From contig JAFGOG010000604.1 in assembly GCA_016926595.1 (NCBI GenBank), positions 1-15,454 of the forward strand: a stretch of DNA of 15,454 nt. The letters are read 5' to 3'. Shown in pieces: positions 1,696-14,091 of the stretch (its first letter is position 1; each line of letters opens with the position of its first letter). Below the pieces are notes generated by a model. The model worked only from the letters and a program-made list of their open reading frames with translations, was not told the DNA's origin and searched no databases. The position numbers and the translations under genes are program-made. This DNA comes from Anaerolineae bacterium. Its GTDB lineage: Bacteria; Chloroflexota; Anaerolineae; JAAYZQ01.

Positions 1696-3141
1696 ATGAC
1701 GAAACCGGCCGTTCTTCGCTCCATAGTGGCCCTGCTGCTGGGCCTGACCATCGTCTCCCTGGCGCGGGGATCCGCCCCCGACTATGTCGGTCCCATCTAC
1801 TCGGGCGCCGAGCTGGACTACCAGCCGGCCATCATCCGCGTCTCGCCGGGCGGCGACCTCATGGTCGTCTTTGAGCGGCTGGCGCCGGGCAGCTACTTTG
1901 GCGACCTGTATGTCAGCTTCTCGTCGGACGGCGGCCACACCTGGACCACACCTCAGGCGATCGTCAGCTCGGCGCTCAACGAGCGCCACCCGGCCCTGGT
2001 GCAATTGGCCTCTGATTCTTTCGCCCTCTTTTACCTGGTCGACGAGACCAGCTCGGGTGGGTATCGCCTCCACCGCGCCACTTCGGCTGATGGCCTGGTC
2101 TGGACCGACCAGGGCGCCCTGGACCTGGGCTGGGCGACGCCCGGCGAGATCAACCCGTGTGTCATCCGCGAGGCGGACGGCACGCTGACCATGACCTACC
2201 ACCGCCTCTCGGGCCCCAGCTACATCGCCCGGTCGGCCGACGGCGGCGCCACCTGGGACAAGGCCAAGACTCAGGTCAGCAGCGGCAGCGCGGCGCTGCC
2301 CCGCCTGGCTAAACGGGAGAGCGATGGGCTATACCTGGTCACCTACCAGGTCAACCCCGGCGGCAACAACCTCGACATCTACAGCAAAACCTCAACCGAC
2401 CCCTACGACTGGAGCGGCCCGCAGCACCCCCTCTCGACGGCGATCAACAGCCACGACTCGCAGCCGGTTGTGCTGGAAGACGGCGCCTTCCTGGTGACCT
2501 ATGCCTCGACGCCGGTCAGCTACTTTGACCTCTTTTACCGCACCAGCCGCGACGGCGTTGTATGGTCAGATGGGGTGCAGGTGACGAACGACCCTGCCCA
2601 CTATGACACCCAGCCCCACCCGCTGCTGGCGGGCGCGCCCGGCTATGTCCTGCTTACCTGGTCACACCAGGTGGGCGCAACCCCCTACGTCGACCACGAC
2701 GTGTGGATCAACACCGGTCTGGCCATCCCCCCCGATCTGAGTGGATCGGCAAAAGCGGTCGATCCGCCCATCTTCTACCCGTCGGACCTGCTGACCTATA
2801 CGCTGGTCCTGTCCAACACCGGTCTCGGCCCGACGGTCGCCTGGCTGGCCGATCCGATCCCTGCCGATACGGCCTACCAGCCGGGCAGCCTGTGGGCCAG
2901 CAGCGGCCAGTACGGTTACGATCCGGCTGGCGACACGATCACCTGGACCGGGATGATCTCGGCCGGCGGGCAGGTCACCCTGTCCTTCCAGGTCAGCACG
3001 GGCCTTGACCTGTCGGACGGCGACGTGGTGACCAACACCGCCTGGCTCACCGACGGGCAGGGGATCGCCTGCACCCTGACGGCCGCCGCCGCCGCCATCC
3101 CACTGTGGCGCTTTTATCTACCTGTGGTCATAAAGGAATAG
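1696..3141 (+). CDS. Exported Asp-box (sialidase-fold) protein with DUF11 domain
   Basis: A 481-residue protein starts at an ATG preceded by AAAGGAG. Residues 1-27 form a signal peptide: basic start, hydrophobic core IVALLLGLTIVSLA, cleavage near ARGSA. Residues about 30-340 form a beta-propeller-like region with Asp-box motifs: S76-SDGGHTW83, a short form at S130-ADGLVW136, S180-ADGGATW187, and a short form at S284-RDGVVW290. Residues about 345-445 match the DUF11 'conserved repeat' domain (YPSDLLTYTLVLSNTG... and ITWTGMISAGG...), which is common in large surface proteins. The C-terminus is WRFYLPVVIKE, the same tail type as the protein at 1199-1504. Asp boxes are structural, and I could not identify the Arg triad or Asp/Tyr/Glu set of true sialidases, so glycosidase activity is not claimed. 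A secreted or envelope-associated carbohydrate-binding or structural protein is the safest reading. The gene has its own promoter and RBS and is probably a single unit. Confidence 0.85.
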   Translation: MTKPAVLRSIVALLLGLTIVSLARGSAPDYVGPIYSGAELDYQPAIIRVSPGGDLMVVFERLAPGSYFGDLYVSFSSDGGHTWTTPQAIVSSALNERHPALVQLASDSFALFYLVDETSSGGYRLHRATSADGLVWTDQGALDLGWATPGEINPCVIREADGTLTMTYHRLSGPSYIARSADGGATWDKAKTQVSSGSAALPRLAKRESDGLYLVTYQVNPGGNNLDIYSKTSTDPYDWSGPQHPLSTAINSHDSQPVVLEDGAFLVTYASTPVSYFDLFYRTSRDGVVWSDGVQVTNDPAHYDTQPHPLLAGAPGYVLLTWSHQVGATPYVDHDVWINTGLAIPPDLSGSAKAVDPPIFYPSDLLTYTLVLSNTGLGPTVAWLADPIPADTAYQPGSLWASSGQYGYDPAGDTITWTGMISAGGQVTLSFQVSTGLDLSDGDVVTNTAWLTDGQGIACTLTAAAAAIPLWRFYLPVVIKE

Positions 3142-3161
3142 TCTCATGCCGTGGGCGTGCG

Positions 3162-3196
3162 CCCCCCCCCTGGGATCGCCGGGCTCCGGCCCGGCC
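3162..3196 (-). repeat. REP-like hairpin repeat, copy a
   Basis: A run of nine C (3162-3170), TGGGATC, then the hairpin GCCGGGC-TCCG-GCCCGGC (3178-3195; 7-bp stem, 4-base loop). Read on the minus strand it is a version of the copies found inside and after the transposase gene. It begins 20 bases after the stop of the Asp-box gene, where it might also help end transcription. Confidence 0.75.
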
Positions 3197-3199
3197 TTG

Positions 3200-3232
3200 C
3201 CCCCCCTGGGATCGCCGGGCTCCAGCCCGGCC
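3200..3232 (-). repeat. REP-like hairpin repeat, copy b
   Basis: Nearly identical to copy a and exactly 36 bp further on (TGGGATCGCC starts at 3171 and 3207). The hairpin is GCCGGGC-TCCA-GCCCGGC at 3214-3231. It has the same orientation as copy a and is inverted relative to copies c, d and e. Confidence 0.75.
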
Positions 3233-3284
3233 CCACCGCCGCGTGGCGTGATGAGACGACAGGGTATCATCTGCGGAGGTGTGC

Positions 3285-3929
3285 ATGACCATTCCCGGCC
3301 CGACCGCCCCTACGTGGCACTCACGTGGATATGTGCCGCATTTCGACGCACCGCATGCTATCCAGCACGTCACCTACCACTTGGCCGATAGCCTGCCGGC
3401 CGATGCACTCGCGCGCCTGGAGGAAGAGTTGCGCTCGCTGCCACCGCAGCGACAGGATCCTGAGCGGCGGAAGCGCATCGAAGCGTTGCTTGATGCTGGG
3501 CATGGAAGCTGTGTCCTGCGCGCTCCATCTGTTGCAGGCATGGTCCAAGCGTCATTGCTGCACTTTGACGGCGAGCGGTACCGGCTGCTGGCCTGGGTAG
3601 TGATGCCCAATCACGTGCATATCCTGTTCGAGCCCCTTGATGCCTTGACGGTGGCGCAGATTGTGGCATCGTGGAAATCGTTTACGGGGAGAAGGATTGC
3701 GGAGTATATGGACAGGTATCAGGCTCAGGGCCAGGCTGGAGCCTGGCGATCCCAGGAGGGGAGGCGAGTCTGGCAGAGGGAGTATTGGGACCGGTTTATC
3801 CGGGATGAACGGCACTTTAACGCAGCGATGAGCTACATCCACCAAAATCCGGTCAAGGCGGGGCTGGTGAGAAGGGTGGAGGATTGGGAGTGGAGTAGTG
3901 CCAGGTTGGAGCCTGGTGAACCACTGTGA
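3285..3929 (+). CDS. REP-associated tyrosine transposase (RAYT, Y1 HUH family)
   Basis: A 214-residue protein. I chose the ATG at 3285 because GGAGG (3275-3279) lies 5 bases upstream; the in-frame GTG at 3279 overlaps that site. The N-terminal block WHSRGYVPHFD...QHVTYHLADSLP and the segment LDAGHGSCVLR are typical of the RAYT group. The HUH motif is in VMPNHVHILFEP (H110 and H112). The expected catalytic tyrosine is Y184 in SYIHQNPVKAGL. WKSFTGRRI and WQREYWDRFIRDERHF sit between them as in the family. These enzymes nick single-stranded DNA at REP hairpins and are thought to have spread REP elements through the genome. Two features are odd. Residues 149-159 (GQAGAWRSQEG) are encoded by an in-frame REP-like copy, and the last residues (ARLEPGEPL) come from another. 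All catalytic residues are present, so it may still be active, though the insertion lies between the HUH and Tyr motifs. Confidence 0.88.
   Translation: MTIPGPTAPTWHSRGYVPHFDAPHAIQHVTYHLADSLPADALARLEEELRSLPPQRQDPERRKRIEALLDAGHGSCVLRAPSVAGMVQASLLHFDGERYRLLAWVVMPNHVHILFEPLDALTVAQIVASWKSFTGRRIAEYMDRYQAQGQAGAWRSQEGRRVWQREYWDRFIRDERHFNAAMSYIHQNPVKAGLVRRVEDWEWSSARLEPGEPL
3729..3761 (+). repeat. REP-like hairpin repeat, copy c, inside the RAYT gene
   Basis: The hairpin GCCAGGC-TGGA-GCCTGGC is at 3730-3747, followed by GATCCCAGGAGGGG. This corresponds base for base to the minus-strand reading of copies a and b apart from a few changes. The 33-bp element is 11 codons long and keeps the reading frame. 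The G-to-A change in one arm is matched by C-to-T in the other, so the hairpin is preserved. Confidence 0.75.
3900..3922 (+). repeat. REP-like hairpin repeat, copy d, forming the end of the RAYT gene
   Basis: The hairpin arms are GCCAGGT-TGGA-GCCTGGT (3900-3917), with two G-T wobble pairs. The repeat encodes the last residues of the transposase (ARLEPGEP), and the stop codon follows at 3927-3929. It is diverged from copy c in the tail. Confidence 0.65.
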
Positions 3930-3935
3930 GAAGGC

Positions 3936-3965
3936 GCCAAGCTGGAGCCTGGCGGTTCTGGGGAA
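3936..3965 (+). repeat. REP-like hairpin repeat, copy e
   Basis: GCCAAGC-TGGA-GCCTGGC (3936-3953) has one A-C mismatch in the stem and is followed by GGTTCTGGGG. It starts exactly 36 bp after copy d, the same pitch as copies a and b. It may act as the 3' hairpin of the transposase transcript. Confidence 0.65.
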
Positions 3966-3988
3966 GGCTACGTGCCGGGTGGCGTTTT

Positions 3989-4018
3989 TTGATCGCTCTG
4001 CTGCAACCGTGGTATAAT
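3989..4018 (+). promoter_or_regulatory. Sigma70-type promoter for uvrA
   Basis: TTGATC at 3989-3994 and a consensus TATAAT at 4013-4018, spaced 18 bp, are set in a locally AT-richer patch. Transcription would start near 4025, just before the leader hairpin at 4027-4051. Confidence 0.7.
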
Positions 4019-4026
4019 AAACGGCT

Positions 4027-4051
4027 ATCGCCCGGTAGCCGCCCGGGCGAT
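4027..4051 (+). other. Leader stem-loop upstream of the uvrA ribosome binding site
   Basis: ATCGCCCGG (4027-4035) and CCGGGCGAT (4043-4051) form a perfect 9-bp stem with a 7-base loop. The stem begins at or next to the predicted transcript start and ends 1 base before the GGGGAG ribosome binding site (4053-4058). It could stabilise the 5' end of the mRNA, modulate ribosome access, or be an operator. It does not resemble the SOS boxes of E. coli or Bacillus. Confidence 0.55.
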
Positions 4052-4064
4052 TGGGGAGCGAGCC

Positions 4065-7013
<2,949 letters not shown>

Positions 7014-8887: not shown

Positions 8888-11374
8888 CTACTCGGCCGGC
8901 ACAGCTATCTCAACCGTCACCGGCAACTGCTTCTCGAACACCAAGCCTTTCTCATCGCCCGTTTCGGCTCCCAGGTCGGCGACCACATAGTCGCCAGCCT
9001 GGAACTCGCCGCGCAGCACCCGCTTTGACAGCGGGCTCTCGACGTAACGCTGCAGCGTGCGTCGCAGCGGCCGGGCGCCAAAGGCCGGGTCGTAGCCTTC
9101 CCGGGCTAGCCATCGGCGGGCTGCGTCGGTCAGTTCAATGGCGATCCCCCGCTCGCCCAAGCGCTCACGAATTTCTGCCATCTGCAAGTCGACTATTTGC
9201 TCCACATGCTCCAAGGTCAGGGTGTGGAAGATGATAACCTCGTCGATCCGGTTCAGGAACTCGGGCCGGAAGGTTCGCTTCAAGCCCTCTTCAATCTGTT
9301 CTTTGGCCTTGCGTGCCTCTTCGTCGCCTCCATTGGAGCGGATAAAGCCCAGTGTGCCCCCTGCTTTTGCGTATTCTGTCCCGATGTTGGAGGTCATGAT
9401 CAGCACCGTGTTGCGAAAATCCACCACGCGTCCCTGGCCGTCGGTCAGCCGGCCGTCTTCTAGGATCTGCAGCAGCGCATTCAACACGTCCGAATGGGCC
9501 TTTTCGATCTCGTCGAACAGCACGATCTGGTACGGGCGGCGGCGAACCGCCTCGGTGAGCTGGCCGCCTTCGTCATAGCCGACGTAGCCTGGCGGCGCGC
9601 CGAATAACCGGCTGACGGTGTGCTGTTCCCGGTATTCGCTCATGTCGACGCGGACCATGGCGTCCTGGTCGTCGAACAGGAACTCGGCCAACGCTTTGGC
9701 CAGCTCTGTCTTGCCGACGCCCGAGCTGCCCAGGAAGATAAAGCTGCCGATTGGCCGGCGTGGATCCTTCATGCCGCTGCGTGCCCGCCGGATCGAGTCG
9801 GCAATGGCGCCGATCGCCTCTTCCTGGCCGACGATCCGCTTGTGCAGGTGCTCTTCCATCGTCAGCAGCTTTTCCGCTTCGGTCTGCAACAGGCTCGACA
9901 CCGGGATGCCGGTCCAGCGAGCCACGACTTCGGCGATGTCATCTGCGCCTACGTATTCGTCCAGGCCGGTTTCCTGTCGCCAGGCGTCGCGCTTTTCGTT
10001 GAACTCGCTCTCCAGAGTCAGTTTTTCGGCTTTGTACTGGGCGGCTCGCTCATAGTCGCGACTTGCCCACGCCGCCTCCTCCTCGGTGGCCAGCTTTTGC
10101 AGGCGGGCCTTCATCTGCTTCAGGTCGGGCGGCAAGGAATAGATCGCCAGGCGCAGTTTGCTGGCCGCTTCGTCGATGAGATCCACTGCCTTGTCGGGCA
10201 GACGCCGGTCGGTGACATAGCGGGCTGAAAGGCGGGCGGCGGCGATCAGCGCCTCCTCGGTAAAGCGCACGTTGTGATGCGCTTCGTAGCGGTCGCGCAG
10301 GCCTTGCAGCATGTCGATCGTCTCTTCAACCGACGGTTCTTCAACCCAGATCGGCGCAAAACGGCGCTCCAGGGCGCTGTCCTTCTCGATGTAGCGCCGG
10401 TATTCGTCCGCCGTGGTCGCGCCGATGCAACGCAACTCGCCGCGCGCCAGCGCCGGCTTGAGCATGCTCGACGCGTCCAGGGCGCCCATTGCCCCACCTG
10501 CGCCGACGACGCTGTGGATCTCGTCGATGAACAGGATCACTTCGCCCTCGGCGCGTTGGATCTCTTCTATCGCCCCCTTCAGCCGCTCCTCGAACTCGCC
10601 GCGGAAGCGTGTGCCGGCCACCATGGCCCCCAGGTCGAGCTGGATGACCCGCTTGCTGCTCAGGATTTCCGGCACGTCGTCCTGGGCGATCTTGATGGCC
10701 AGGCCTTCGACGATAGCTGTCTTGCCCACGCCGGCCCCGCCGATCAGCACCGGGTTGTTTTTGGTGCGCCGGCTGAGCACCTGGATTACCCGCAAGATCT
10801 CGTCGTCTCGCCCCACGACAGGGTCGAGCTTACCCTGCCGCGCCAACTGTGTCAGGTCGCGGCTGAACTTTTCCAGGGTGCGGTAGTGGCTCTCTGCCTG
10901 GGGCGTTGTCACCTGCTGCCCACCCCGGACCTCTTTGACAGCCTCCAGGATCCGGTCGCGCGTAACCCCCATCTCGACCAGGATGCGGGCCGCGGGGGCT
11001 TCCCGCTCGGCTGCCAGCGCCAGAAAGAGGTGCTCCGTCGAGATGTAATCGTCTTTCAGTTTAGCCGCTTCCTGGTTCGCCTGGTCCATGACCCGCTTTA
11101 GCCGGGGGGTGATATACACCTGGCCCAACCCTCCCGCGCCGTAGATCTGAGTGCGGTGGGTCTTTTTTAACTCCTCGTCGAGCCTTTGGCTGATCTGGTC
11201 CAGATCCACATTCAGGTAGCGCAGGATGTCAGGGATGACGCCGTCCGGCTGTTCTATCAAGGCCAGCAGCAGGTGCTCTGTGTCCACCTGGCTGTGGCTG
11301 TAACGCTGCAAGACTTCGTAGGCCCGCATGGCCGCGTCCTGCGCTCGTTCTGTGTATCGATCAAAACGCATCAT
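8888..11374 (-). CDS. clpC: ATP-dependent Clp protease ATP-binding subunit ClpC
   Basis: An 828-residue AAA+ unfoldase. Two N-terminal Clp repeats (about 5-145; [18 protein letters not shown]) are followed by Walker A1 GGAGVGKT (212-219, K218) and Walker [10 protein letters not shown] short middle region carries a UVR-like motif around D440 ([13 protein letters not shown]) instead of the long ClpB coiled coil. Walker A2 is GSSGVGKT (549-556, K555), with Walker [18 protein letters not shown] loop (L675-G676-F677) is where ClpP-binding Clp ATPases carry their docking motif, which ClpB lacks. This supports ClpC: it unfolds substrates and feeds ClpP; no clpP gene is in the window. The start is ATG-ATG at 11374/11371, with GAGGG (11388-11384) 9 bases upstream and its own promoter. 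Both Walker A loops differ from the usual GEPGVGKT and GPTGVGKT but keep GKT. Confidence 0.93.

Positions 11375-11496: not shown

Positions 11497-14091
<2,595 letters not shown>

Follow-up and report, generated by a model that had tools for sequence, protein, structure and literature searches.

The window, by which we mean the whole stretch of 15,454 nucleotides that was analyzed, contains a genuine RAYT unit. Its clade has a variant hairpin foot and habitually carries hairpins in its own gene. The unit is probably REPtron-like, consisting of a RAYT-type Y1 HuH transposase and of hairpins that it most likely recognizes in single-stranded form and that are local to the element. At related loci, whole RAYT units lie in frame inside candidate defence genes, and these are the lead most worth following. 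The features of the window unit are as follows.

3164 to 3232, plus strand: 33-nt direct repeat holding the upstream hairpin pair (copies 3164-3196 and 3200-3232, spacing 36; family D3, 97% identical)
3172 to 3195, plus strand: upstream hairpin copy 1, foot GGGATC, GCCGGGC / TCCG / GCCCGGC, 7 of 7 Watson-Crick pairs
3208 to 3231, plus strand: upstream hairpin copy 2, foot GGGATC, GCCGGGC / TCCA / GCCCGGC, 7 of 7 pairs
3275 to 3279, plus strand: GGAGG, ribosome-binding-site-like by sequence reading, 5 nt 5′ of the ATG at 3285
3285 to 3929, plus strand: RAYT (Y1 HuH transposase), 214 aa, protein P0001, stop codon TGA at 3927-3929
3609 to 3620, plus strand: HuH motif NHVH, residues 109-112, from an alignment of 92 sequences
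3730 to 3753, minus strand: internal in-frame hairpin copy, foot GGGATC, GCCAGGC / TCCA / GCCTGGC, 7 of 7 pairs
3834 to 3836, plus strand: codon of the catalytic tyrosine, Tyr184 of YIHQNP, invariant in the 92 aligned sequences
3900 to 3923, minus strand: downstream hairpin copy 1, degenerate, foot TGGTTC, 5 of 7 pairs on the tag strand
3936 to 3959, minus strand: downstream hairpin copy 2, degenerate, foot AGAACC, 6 of 7 pairs plus a G-T on the tag strand
3967 to 3983, plus strand: terminator-like stem-loop with a T run, between the RAYT unit and uvrA

The 214-aa gene at 3285-3929 (plus strand) has an intact reading frame and sits between a BNR-repeat gene that ends at 3141 and uvrA, which starts at 4065. 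It has the HuH and Y---NP motifs by which RAYTs are defined, and REP-like stem-loops lie on both of its flanks. Of the 119 further homologues listed, 91 were aligned with the window RAYT; N109 and H110 are invariant, and V111 and H112 are each conserved in at least 90% of the 92 sequences. The protein scored 34.5 bits against PF01797 (Y1_Tnp) and 104.6 bits against the curated NCBIfam model NF047646 for REP-associated tyrosine transposases (cut-off 80), but stayed below the cut-off of 55 for the IS200-type TnpA model NF033573, at 24.2 bits. At an E value of 0.001, a PDB sequence search returned a sole match, the TnpAREP structure 4er8. A fold search with the structure model (pLDDT 80.8) likewise returned 4er8 alone at that threshold (E 6.7e-5; TM 0.46 by query and 0.58 by target), with 2xma ranking second at E 0.013. 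The NF047646 score and the agreement of sequence and fold on 4er8 support the earlier note, which had called a RAYT with inverted REP-like hairpins from the DNA letters.

Five hairpin copies accompany the gene, two tagged on the plus strand and three on the minus strand. The three good copies have a common foot, GGGATC, which is lost in both decayed downstream copies. The internal copy spans RAYT codons 149-157, in a loop at residues 149-163, and downstream copy 1 falls within the end of the ORF, where it encodes ARLEPGEP. The earlier note had described hairpins with 7-bp stems upstream and inverted hairpins downstream, at a pitch of 36 bp on either side. The upstream stems at 3178-3195 and 3214-3231 are indeed perfect, inverted copies do lie at 3900-3917 and 3936-3953, and the pitch of 36 bp is found on both sides (3178/3214 and 3900/3936). 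The symmetry that it saw holds as far as the presence of inverted copies on both sides is concerned, but the downstream pair is decayed and the fifth, internal copy had been overlooked. The further claim that paired repeats at a fixed spacing characterize the family had to be given up, as adjacent strict copies no more than 80 bp apart at related loci show a pitch of 25 to 76 bp, with 36 bp in only six of 35 pairs. We therefore rejected a fixed 36-bp pairing, and the upstream pair is most simply read as one tandem duplication. Compared with BIMEs and REPINs, the upstream pair is a direct tandem, and the inverted arrangement exists only across the gene.

Support for the hairpins rests on recurrence rather than folding stability, and folding alone is weak evidence: single-strand folding gave z scores of -1.9, -1.8, -1.5, -1.0, and -0.7. 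The pattern GGGATCGCCNGGCTNNNGCCNGGC, allowing up to three mismatches, matches the window three times against 0.03 expected from 200 shuffles, a comparison that is not independent because the pattern was derived from the window's own copies. Stem pairs also vary in a compensated manner, as the earlier note had argued in favor of a selected structure. That argument is thin inside the window, where it comes down to a single pair position (pair 4, G-C vs A-T), and gains its strength across loci. In 44 related loci, the first two stem positions hardly vary (G-C and C-G), positions 3-7 show several Watson-Crick types, and 15 loci have more than one Watson-Crick type at some stem position among their own copies. 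These compensated pairs support selection on the predicted structure across loci.

The locus set behind these comparisons consisted of the best 80 of 312 confirmed genome loci plus the window, giving 81 RAYTs from many phyla. We asked how often a candidate foot is followed by a hairpin, which was called when at least six of seven pairs formed after the site; pairing was not required beforehand. Within 500 bp of the 81 RAYTs, 155 of 421 GGGANC sites start a hairpin (in 44 loci), compared with 17 of 554 far sites; in one shuffled copy of the near regions, none of 374 sites does. Other feet near the RAYTs rarely do so (GTAG, 2/492; GTGG, 6/1071; CGTC, 5/1300). The dinucleotide 5′ of the foot is CT at 94 and CC at 38 of the 155 sites, so that the consensus at related RAYTs reads CY-GGGANC, unlike the textbook GT[AG]G. 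The window foot, CTGGGATC, likewise differs from the 5′ GT[AG]G foot of the GTAG REP superfamily, and the low count for CGTC sets these hairpins apart from the CGTC superfamily as well. In a first near/far comparison of words in hairpin 5′ flanks, GGGA was by far the commonest enriched four-letter word (184/322 near vs 19/147 far). ATTG had a slightly higher ratio (36 near vs 3 far), and GTAG was unenriched (20/322 near, 9/147 far).

The strict rule found no tagged hairpin near the RAYT in 37 of the 81 loci. A looser hairpin rule raised the number of loci with a nearby tagged hairpin to 65 of 81, and placed one inside the open frame in 57 of 81, but its background was high (124 matches in 350,833 far bases vs 246 near), and strict counts were used instead for this reason. 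A generic genome-wide hairpin pattern was dropped as well, having shown little excess over a reversed control in most of 12 genomes, and patterns specific to each system took its place.

The hairpins resemble the GTAG/GTGG REPs of Nunvar (2010; PMC2817692) in being short stem-loops with a conserved 5′ foot outside the stem, and a P. putida REP described there, TGTGGGAGCGGGC-GCCCGC, also has GGGAGC adjoining its stem. They differ in having CY in place of GT before GG, and neither GTAG nor GTGG is enriched at these RAYTs. P. putida REPs in the same work contain GTGGGAGC, which is one base from CTGGGAGC. CTGG being one base off the GTGG of some Pseudomonas REPs, the foot may therefore be a variant of GTGG and not a separate type. 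E. coli TnpAREP is reported to cleave at a CT beside the REP and to require GTAG (PMC8266576). Given the CT or CC before the foot at these loci, a cut between CY and GGGANC would be the natural inference rather than a result. GTAG REPs have been reported in Chloroflexi before (PMC3733652). If confirmed, the GGGANC foot would add another guide type of RAYTs to the two superfamilies, GTAG and CGTC, that were described in 2013, and a comparison of GTAG-type with GGGANC-type enzymes would make guide recognition and cut-site choice testable.

We next consider whether such hairpins are local to the element or form a classical dispersed REP family, with many intergenic copies in the source genome and the window merely its RAYT locus. 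Such a family usually has REPs in inverted orientation around its RAYT, and we regard this account as possible, if distinctly less probable than a local element. The host was placed through UvrA, whose relatives bearing organism names are from Anaerolineae or Chloroflexota at 80-82% identity, in agreement with the Chloroflexota origin that the earlier note had proposed; the closest matches reach 90-93%. The best UvrA matches among 396 sampled genomes of the class were G322 (85%) and G349 (84%). Among the eight genomes ranking highest by UvrA, G349 alone proved to have a RAYT piece, which lies at the end of a contig. RAYTs of the window kind were found at E 1e-30 in 10 of 301 Chloroflexota genomes. 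The window's exact hairpin pattern was absent from these 301 genomes, which do not include the source genome, and this absence counts against dispersal.

Relatives gave a mixed picture. Hairpins with the RAYT's own stem are confined to the RAYT in three genomes: in G001 (Caldilineaceae), all seven GCCAATC hairpins lie within the RAYT frame; in G002 (Planctomycetia), all four own-stem hairpins are at the RAYT; and in G349, all three perfect GCCAAGC hairpins lie on the RAYT contig, which stops inside the gene. A looser pattern that included a second stem gave 14 hairpins in G001, with at least two imperfect ones elsewhere among the matches listed. G003 has four of its six hairpins at the RAYT and two away from it. 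Dispersal is favored by the scattered copies of other genomes (counts include the copies at the RAYT): 41 in G004, many in arrays; six over six contigs in G007 (Roseiflexus, Chloroflexota); and 11 in G008 and 10 in G009. Besides its local copies, G349, which is the closest relative to have a RAYT piece, contains 16 scattered hairpins of another stem with the CTGGGATC foot. These belong to a terminal-inverted-repeat (TIR) element of ~90 bp found in 16 places (L131-L138, L140-L147), whose central hairpin is GCCGAGC-ACCA-GCTCGGC and which has the foot in the 12 copies uncut at that point. Its TIRs are 18/20 identical in L132, and a 9-bp target duplication was seen in four of seven whole copies. 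Tagged hairpins can thus also spread via another transposase. The evidence for locality is provisional because draft assemblies lose repeats and the G349 RAYT contig ends in the gene. With this qualification, the hairpins of several relatives look like the ends and self-decorations of one element and not like a genome-wide REP population; to apply this one-element reading to the window is an extrapolation. The scattered copies in relatives, together with the 37 loci without a nearby tagged hairpin, stand against the reading of a local, REPtron-like unit. The earlier note's proposal of a new REP family therefore fares unevenly: the foot is unlike GT[AG]G, and the relatives are divided between local and scattered copies.

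Under the preferred reading of a local, REPtron-like unit, the transposase would bind the hairpin on its tagged strand, cut at the CT (or CC) just 5′ of GGGANC by analogy with E. coli TnpAREP, and move or copy the hairpins, or the hairpin-bounded unit, via single-stranded DNA. Copies that land in the unit's own gene would survive if they preserve the frame and strike either tail of the protein (N or C) or a flexible loop, which for the window would be the predicted loop between helix 123-148 and strand 164-171. Because its downstream copies are decayed, the unit may have lost its mobility.

Regulation at the RNA level is a still less likely account of the hairpins. It would have the leader hairpins at 3172-3231 and the internal hairpin act in the mRNA to tune RAYT expression, with mobility secondary or lost. 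Its appeal lies in the position of the upstream pair, between the stop codon ending at 3141 and the ribosome-binding-site-like sequence at 3275, and in the terminator-like site downstream at 3967-3983; the region 3000-4120 has three such sites, two of them overlapping at 3967-3983, against a mean of 0.5 in shuffles. Such a role fits poorly with a conserved foot that lies outside the stem, on a single strand, and with copies in both orientations relative to the gene. An Rfam scan of the window found no family at gathering score.

Hairpins inside the RAYT gene proved to be common in the clade. By the strict rule, 77 in-frame copies were found in 34 of the 81 loci. All six frame/orientation classes are occupied, which argues that the DNA hairpin is kept and not one peptide, and two or more classes occur together in 21 of the 34 loci. 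A slightly altered rule gave 86 copies for mapping onto the window protein, of which 49 fell on the N side, 26 on the C side, and 11 inside; the two side counts overstate the translated RAYT copies, as they include open frame beyond the true RAYT ends, or host sequence. Eight of the 11 inside copies fall between HuH and Y. Five loci (L001, L006, L009, L031, and the window) hold a copy at residues 148-163, three copies lie at residues 117-119 (one in L055 and two in L077), and three are at domain edges. The loop between helix 123-148 and strand 164-171 was modeled with low confidence (mean pLDDT 53 for residues 151-160 and 60 for 161-170), and many of 27 displayed homologues have translated copies at their ends and in this loop. 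It is most improbable that in-gene copies are retained for the peptide they encode, even though GNANLQIG or ANREIG-type peptides recur within single proteins, given the use of all six classes, more than one in most loci with such copies, and the co-variation of the stems. Least credible of all are chance palindromes in GC-rich DNA, which would suit the modest z scores of single hairpins (-0.7 to -1.9) but are refuted by the recurrence of foot and stem near RAYTs (155/421 vs 17/554 far and 0/374 shuffled) and by the excess of matches in the window (3 vs 0.03 expected).

In-frame REPs within tnpAREP genes are known from subclass 2.4 (Quentin, 2018; PMC6006769), and intragenic REPs had also been described earlier (PMC3733652), so the in-gene copies as such are not new. 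The window RAYT is like the subclass 2.4 TnpAREPs in its class 2 Y---NP motif, its NHVH and WQ, and the scatter of its relatives over phyla (PMC6006769). In that subclass, as here, REPs flank the tnpAREP gene and enter it in frame between HuH and Y (PMC6006769); the window has such a copy at 3730-3753. Subclass 2.4 is described with GT[AG]G REPs and the motif YIxNNP (PMC6006769), whereas the foot here is GGGANC. The window's Y motif reads YIHQNP, and among 111 stand-alone relatives, YIHNNP was found 17 times, YIRNNP 11, YIHQNP 10, and YIHENP seven, along with others. The variable insertion of subclass 2.4 lies between β3 and αC (PMC6006769), whereas the window copy lies between αC and β4, at aligned residues 148-156, after the helix 123-148; L055 and L077 do have an insertion at residues 117-119. 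The distance from HuH to Y has a median of 88 in subclass 2.4 (PMC6006769) and is 75 in the window, with a median of 65 in 104 rows, although counting perhaps differs between the two studies. The foot and the main internal position are what set the in-gene copies apart from those of subclass 2.4.

Other known systems share single features with the unit. IS200/IS605 elements such as ISDra2 and IS608 have a Y1 HuH fold, as the second-ranked fold match, 2xma, reflects, and hairpin ends with a 5′ guide (PMC8266576). In the window, by contrast, the gene lies between hairpins of inverted orientation, and its product is under the cut-off of the IS200 model. Di Nocera (2013; PMC3733652) described intragenic REPs and Rickettsia palindromic elements, which are likewise palindromes in frame in coding genes. 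As described there, the palindrome alone is inserted, whereas here whole RAYT units share frames too.

We found that an open frame of at least 1100 bp runs through the RAYT in 24 of the 80 loci. Eighteen of these 24 frames were scanned, and all 18 also hold another gene family. The partner is the HmaB methylase in nine of the 18 (the DUF1156 domain itself in seven), its assignment in L015 and L032 being made by comparison with HmaB. MmeI-type enzymes are the partners in L058 and L067, and a helicase with NOV_C in L055. The remaining partners are aminotransferases (L072, L076), GH4 (L014), creatininase (L073), RhuM (L012), and HAD (L079), and in these six loci Pfam places the partner at one end only. 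By PADLOC, the methylase is HmaB and the helicase of L055 is HmaA; the literature lists Hma among candidate defence systems (PMC8565338).

HmaB sequence was found on the flanks of the RAYT in 10 of the 80 loci (L011, L015, L018, L021, L023, L027, L030, L032, L034, and L043). It is always on the RAYT's strand, and in nine of the 10 both flanks are in the RAYT frame; in L034 the right flank is out of frame. The units in HmaA (L055) and in the MmeI-type genes (L058 and L067) are on the strand of the host gene too, with MmeI in frame on either side in L058 and on the left side only in L067. Eleven loci in all have a host gene, chiefly HmaB, that runs on in frame to the left and to the right of the RAYT. 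A protein search from one composite matched at least 120 proteins, and in the 129-protein set that included a further nine loci the RAYT was present in 100, which is no measure of prevalence because the query itself held a RAYT, nor is the set deduplicated (P0121 is L018). HmaB-like proteins occur in 67 of 400 Chloroflexota genomes, and a RAYT inside was confirmed in at least three of them (G007, G218, and G220).

The RAYT sits at two host regions, corresponding to residues 184-197 and 442-458 of P0207. Of 99 extracted RAYT domains, 65 belong to the second site and 32 to the first, and two were left unassigned. The ends at the second site are typically LGARASRP on the left and GRPRSQD on the right, which are the hairpin ends read in frame. 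Both the HuH and the Tyr motifs are intact in 94 of the 99 composites (104 of 111 stand-alone rows), as are the methylase motifs DPFAGGG (95/99) and DPPY (94/99). The catalytic motifs of both partners in the HmaB composites thus appear mostly intact at the sequence level. AlphaFold modeling of the methylase-RAYT composite P0121 gave a pLDDT of 57.7 and a pTM of 0.35, too poor to interpret.

A FastTree phylogeny of 214 rows required 14 changes for residence inside HmaB, at least five of them forced by starred branches, which points to several gains or losses of HmaB residence. The window RAYT groups in a starred set of 16 stand-alone RAYTs, giving no sign that its unit ever resided in a gene. 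A grouping of RAYTs has reportedly been made by Bertels and colleagues; E. coli RayT stands on a very long branch in our tree (3.3).

Among the matches listed from the open-licence literature, we found no account of a RAYT lying in frame within a gene for a methylase or a defence protein, nor did we find in print whole RAYT units of the window's group sharing one frame with another gene, as they do in 18 of the 80 loci. A survey of BREX-related systems from 2026 makes no use of the word transposase in its main text (PMC12839542). The nearest parallel is the ShiLan insertion, a mobile gene in a phage DNA methylase gene whose host frame is stop-free, with no known splicing; it differs in that its HNH gene is read out of frame, whereas the RAYT here is in frame with its host (PMC11855218).

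Our tentative interpretation, which we hold to be plausible but short of probable, is that the clade travels in frame. A stop-free foot would admit hairpins, and whole hairpin-RAYT-hairpin units, into reading frames, repeatedly so inside HmaB (at two sites), HmaA, and MmeI, where the RAYT would have become a resident domain, either a passenger of defence genes or a source of single-strand nuclease for them. The window would then be a free-standing relative that shows the same habit on its own gene. GGGANC lacks a stop codon and GTAG holds TAG, so hairpins and units with the variant foot could enter frames without ending translation. Openness in all six frames was considered as proof of selection and set aside as weak, since 108 of 132 tagged units are stop-free and composition shuffles are nearly as open (87 of 132); it serves here as an idea only. 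In-frame units in Hma and MmeI genes would represent splice-free residence of a transposase in a host gene, and it may be asked whether antiviral systems have thereby co-opted a HuH nuclease.

Elsewhere in the window, the ORF at 30-1202 encodes a long collagen-like GPTGATG repeat, and the neighboring ORFs at 1130-1504 and 1696-3141 end in a similar motif (WRFYLPVVIKE in the second), possibly a C-terminal sorting-like tail. Two adjacent large genes at 8888-11374 and 11497-14091 (minus strand) look like Clp-type ATPase genes, a name given by the look of their sequences.
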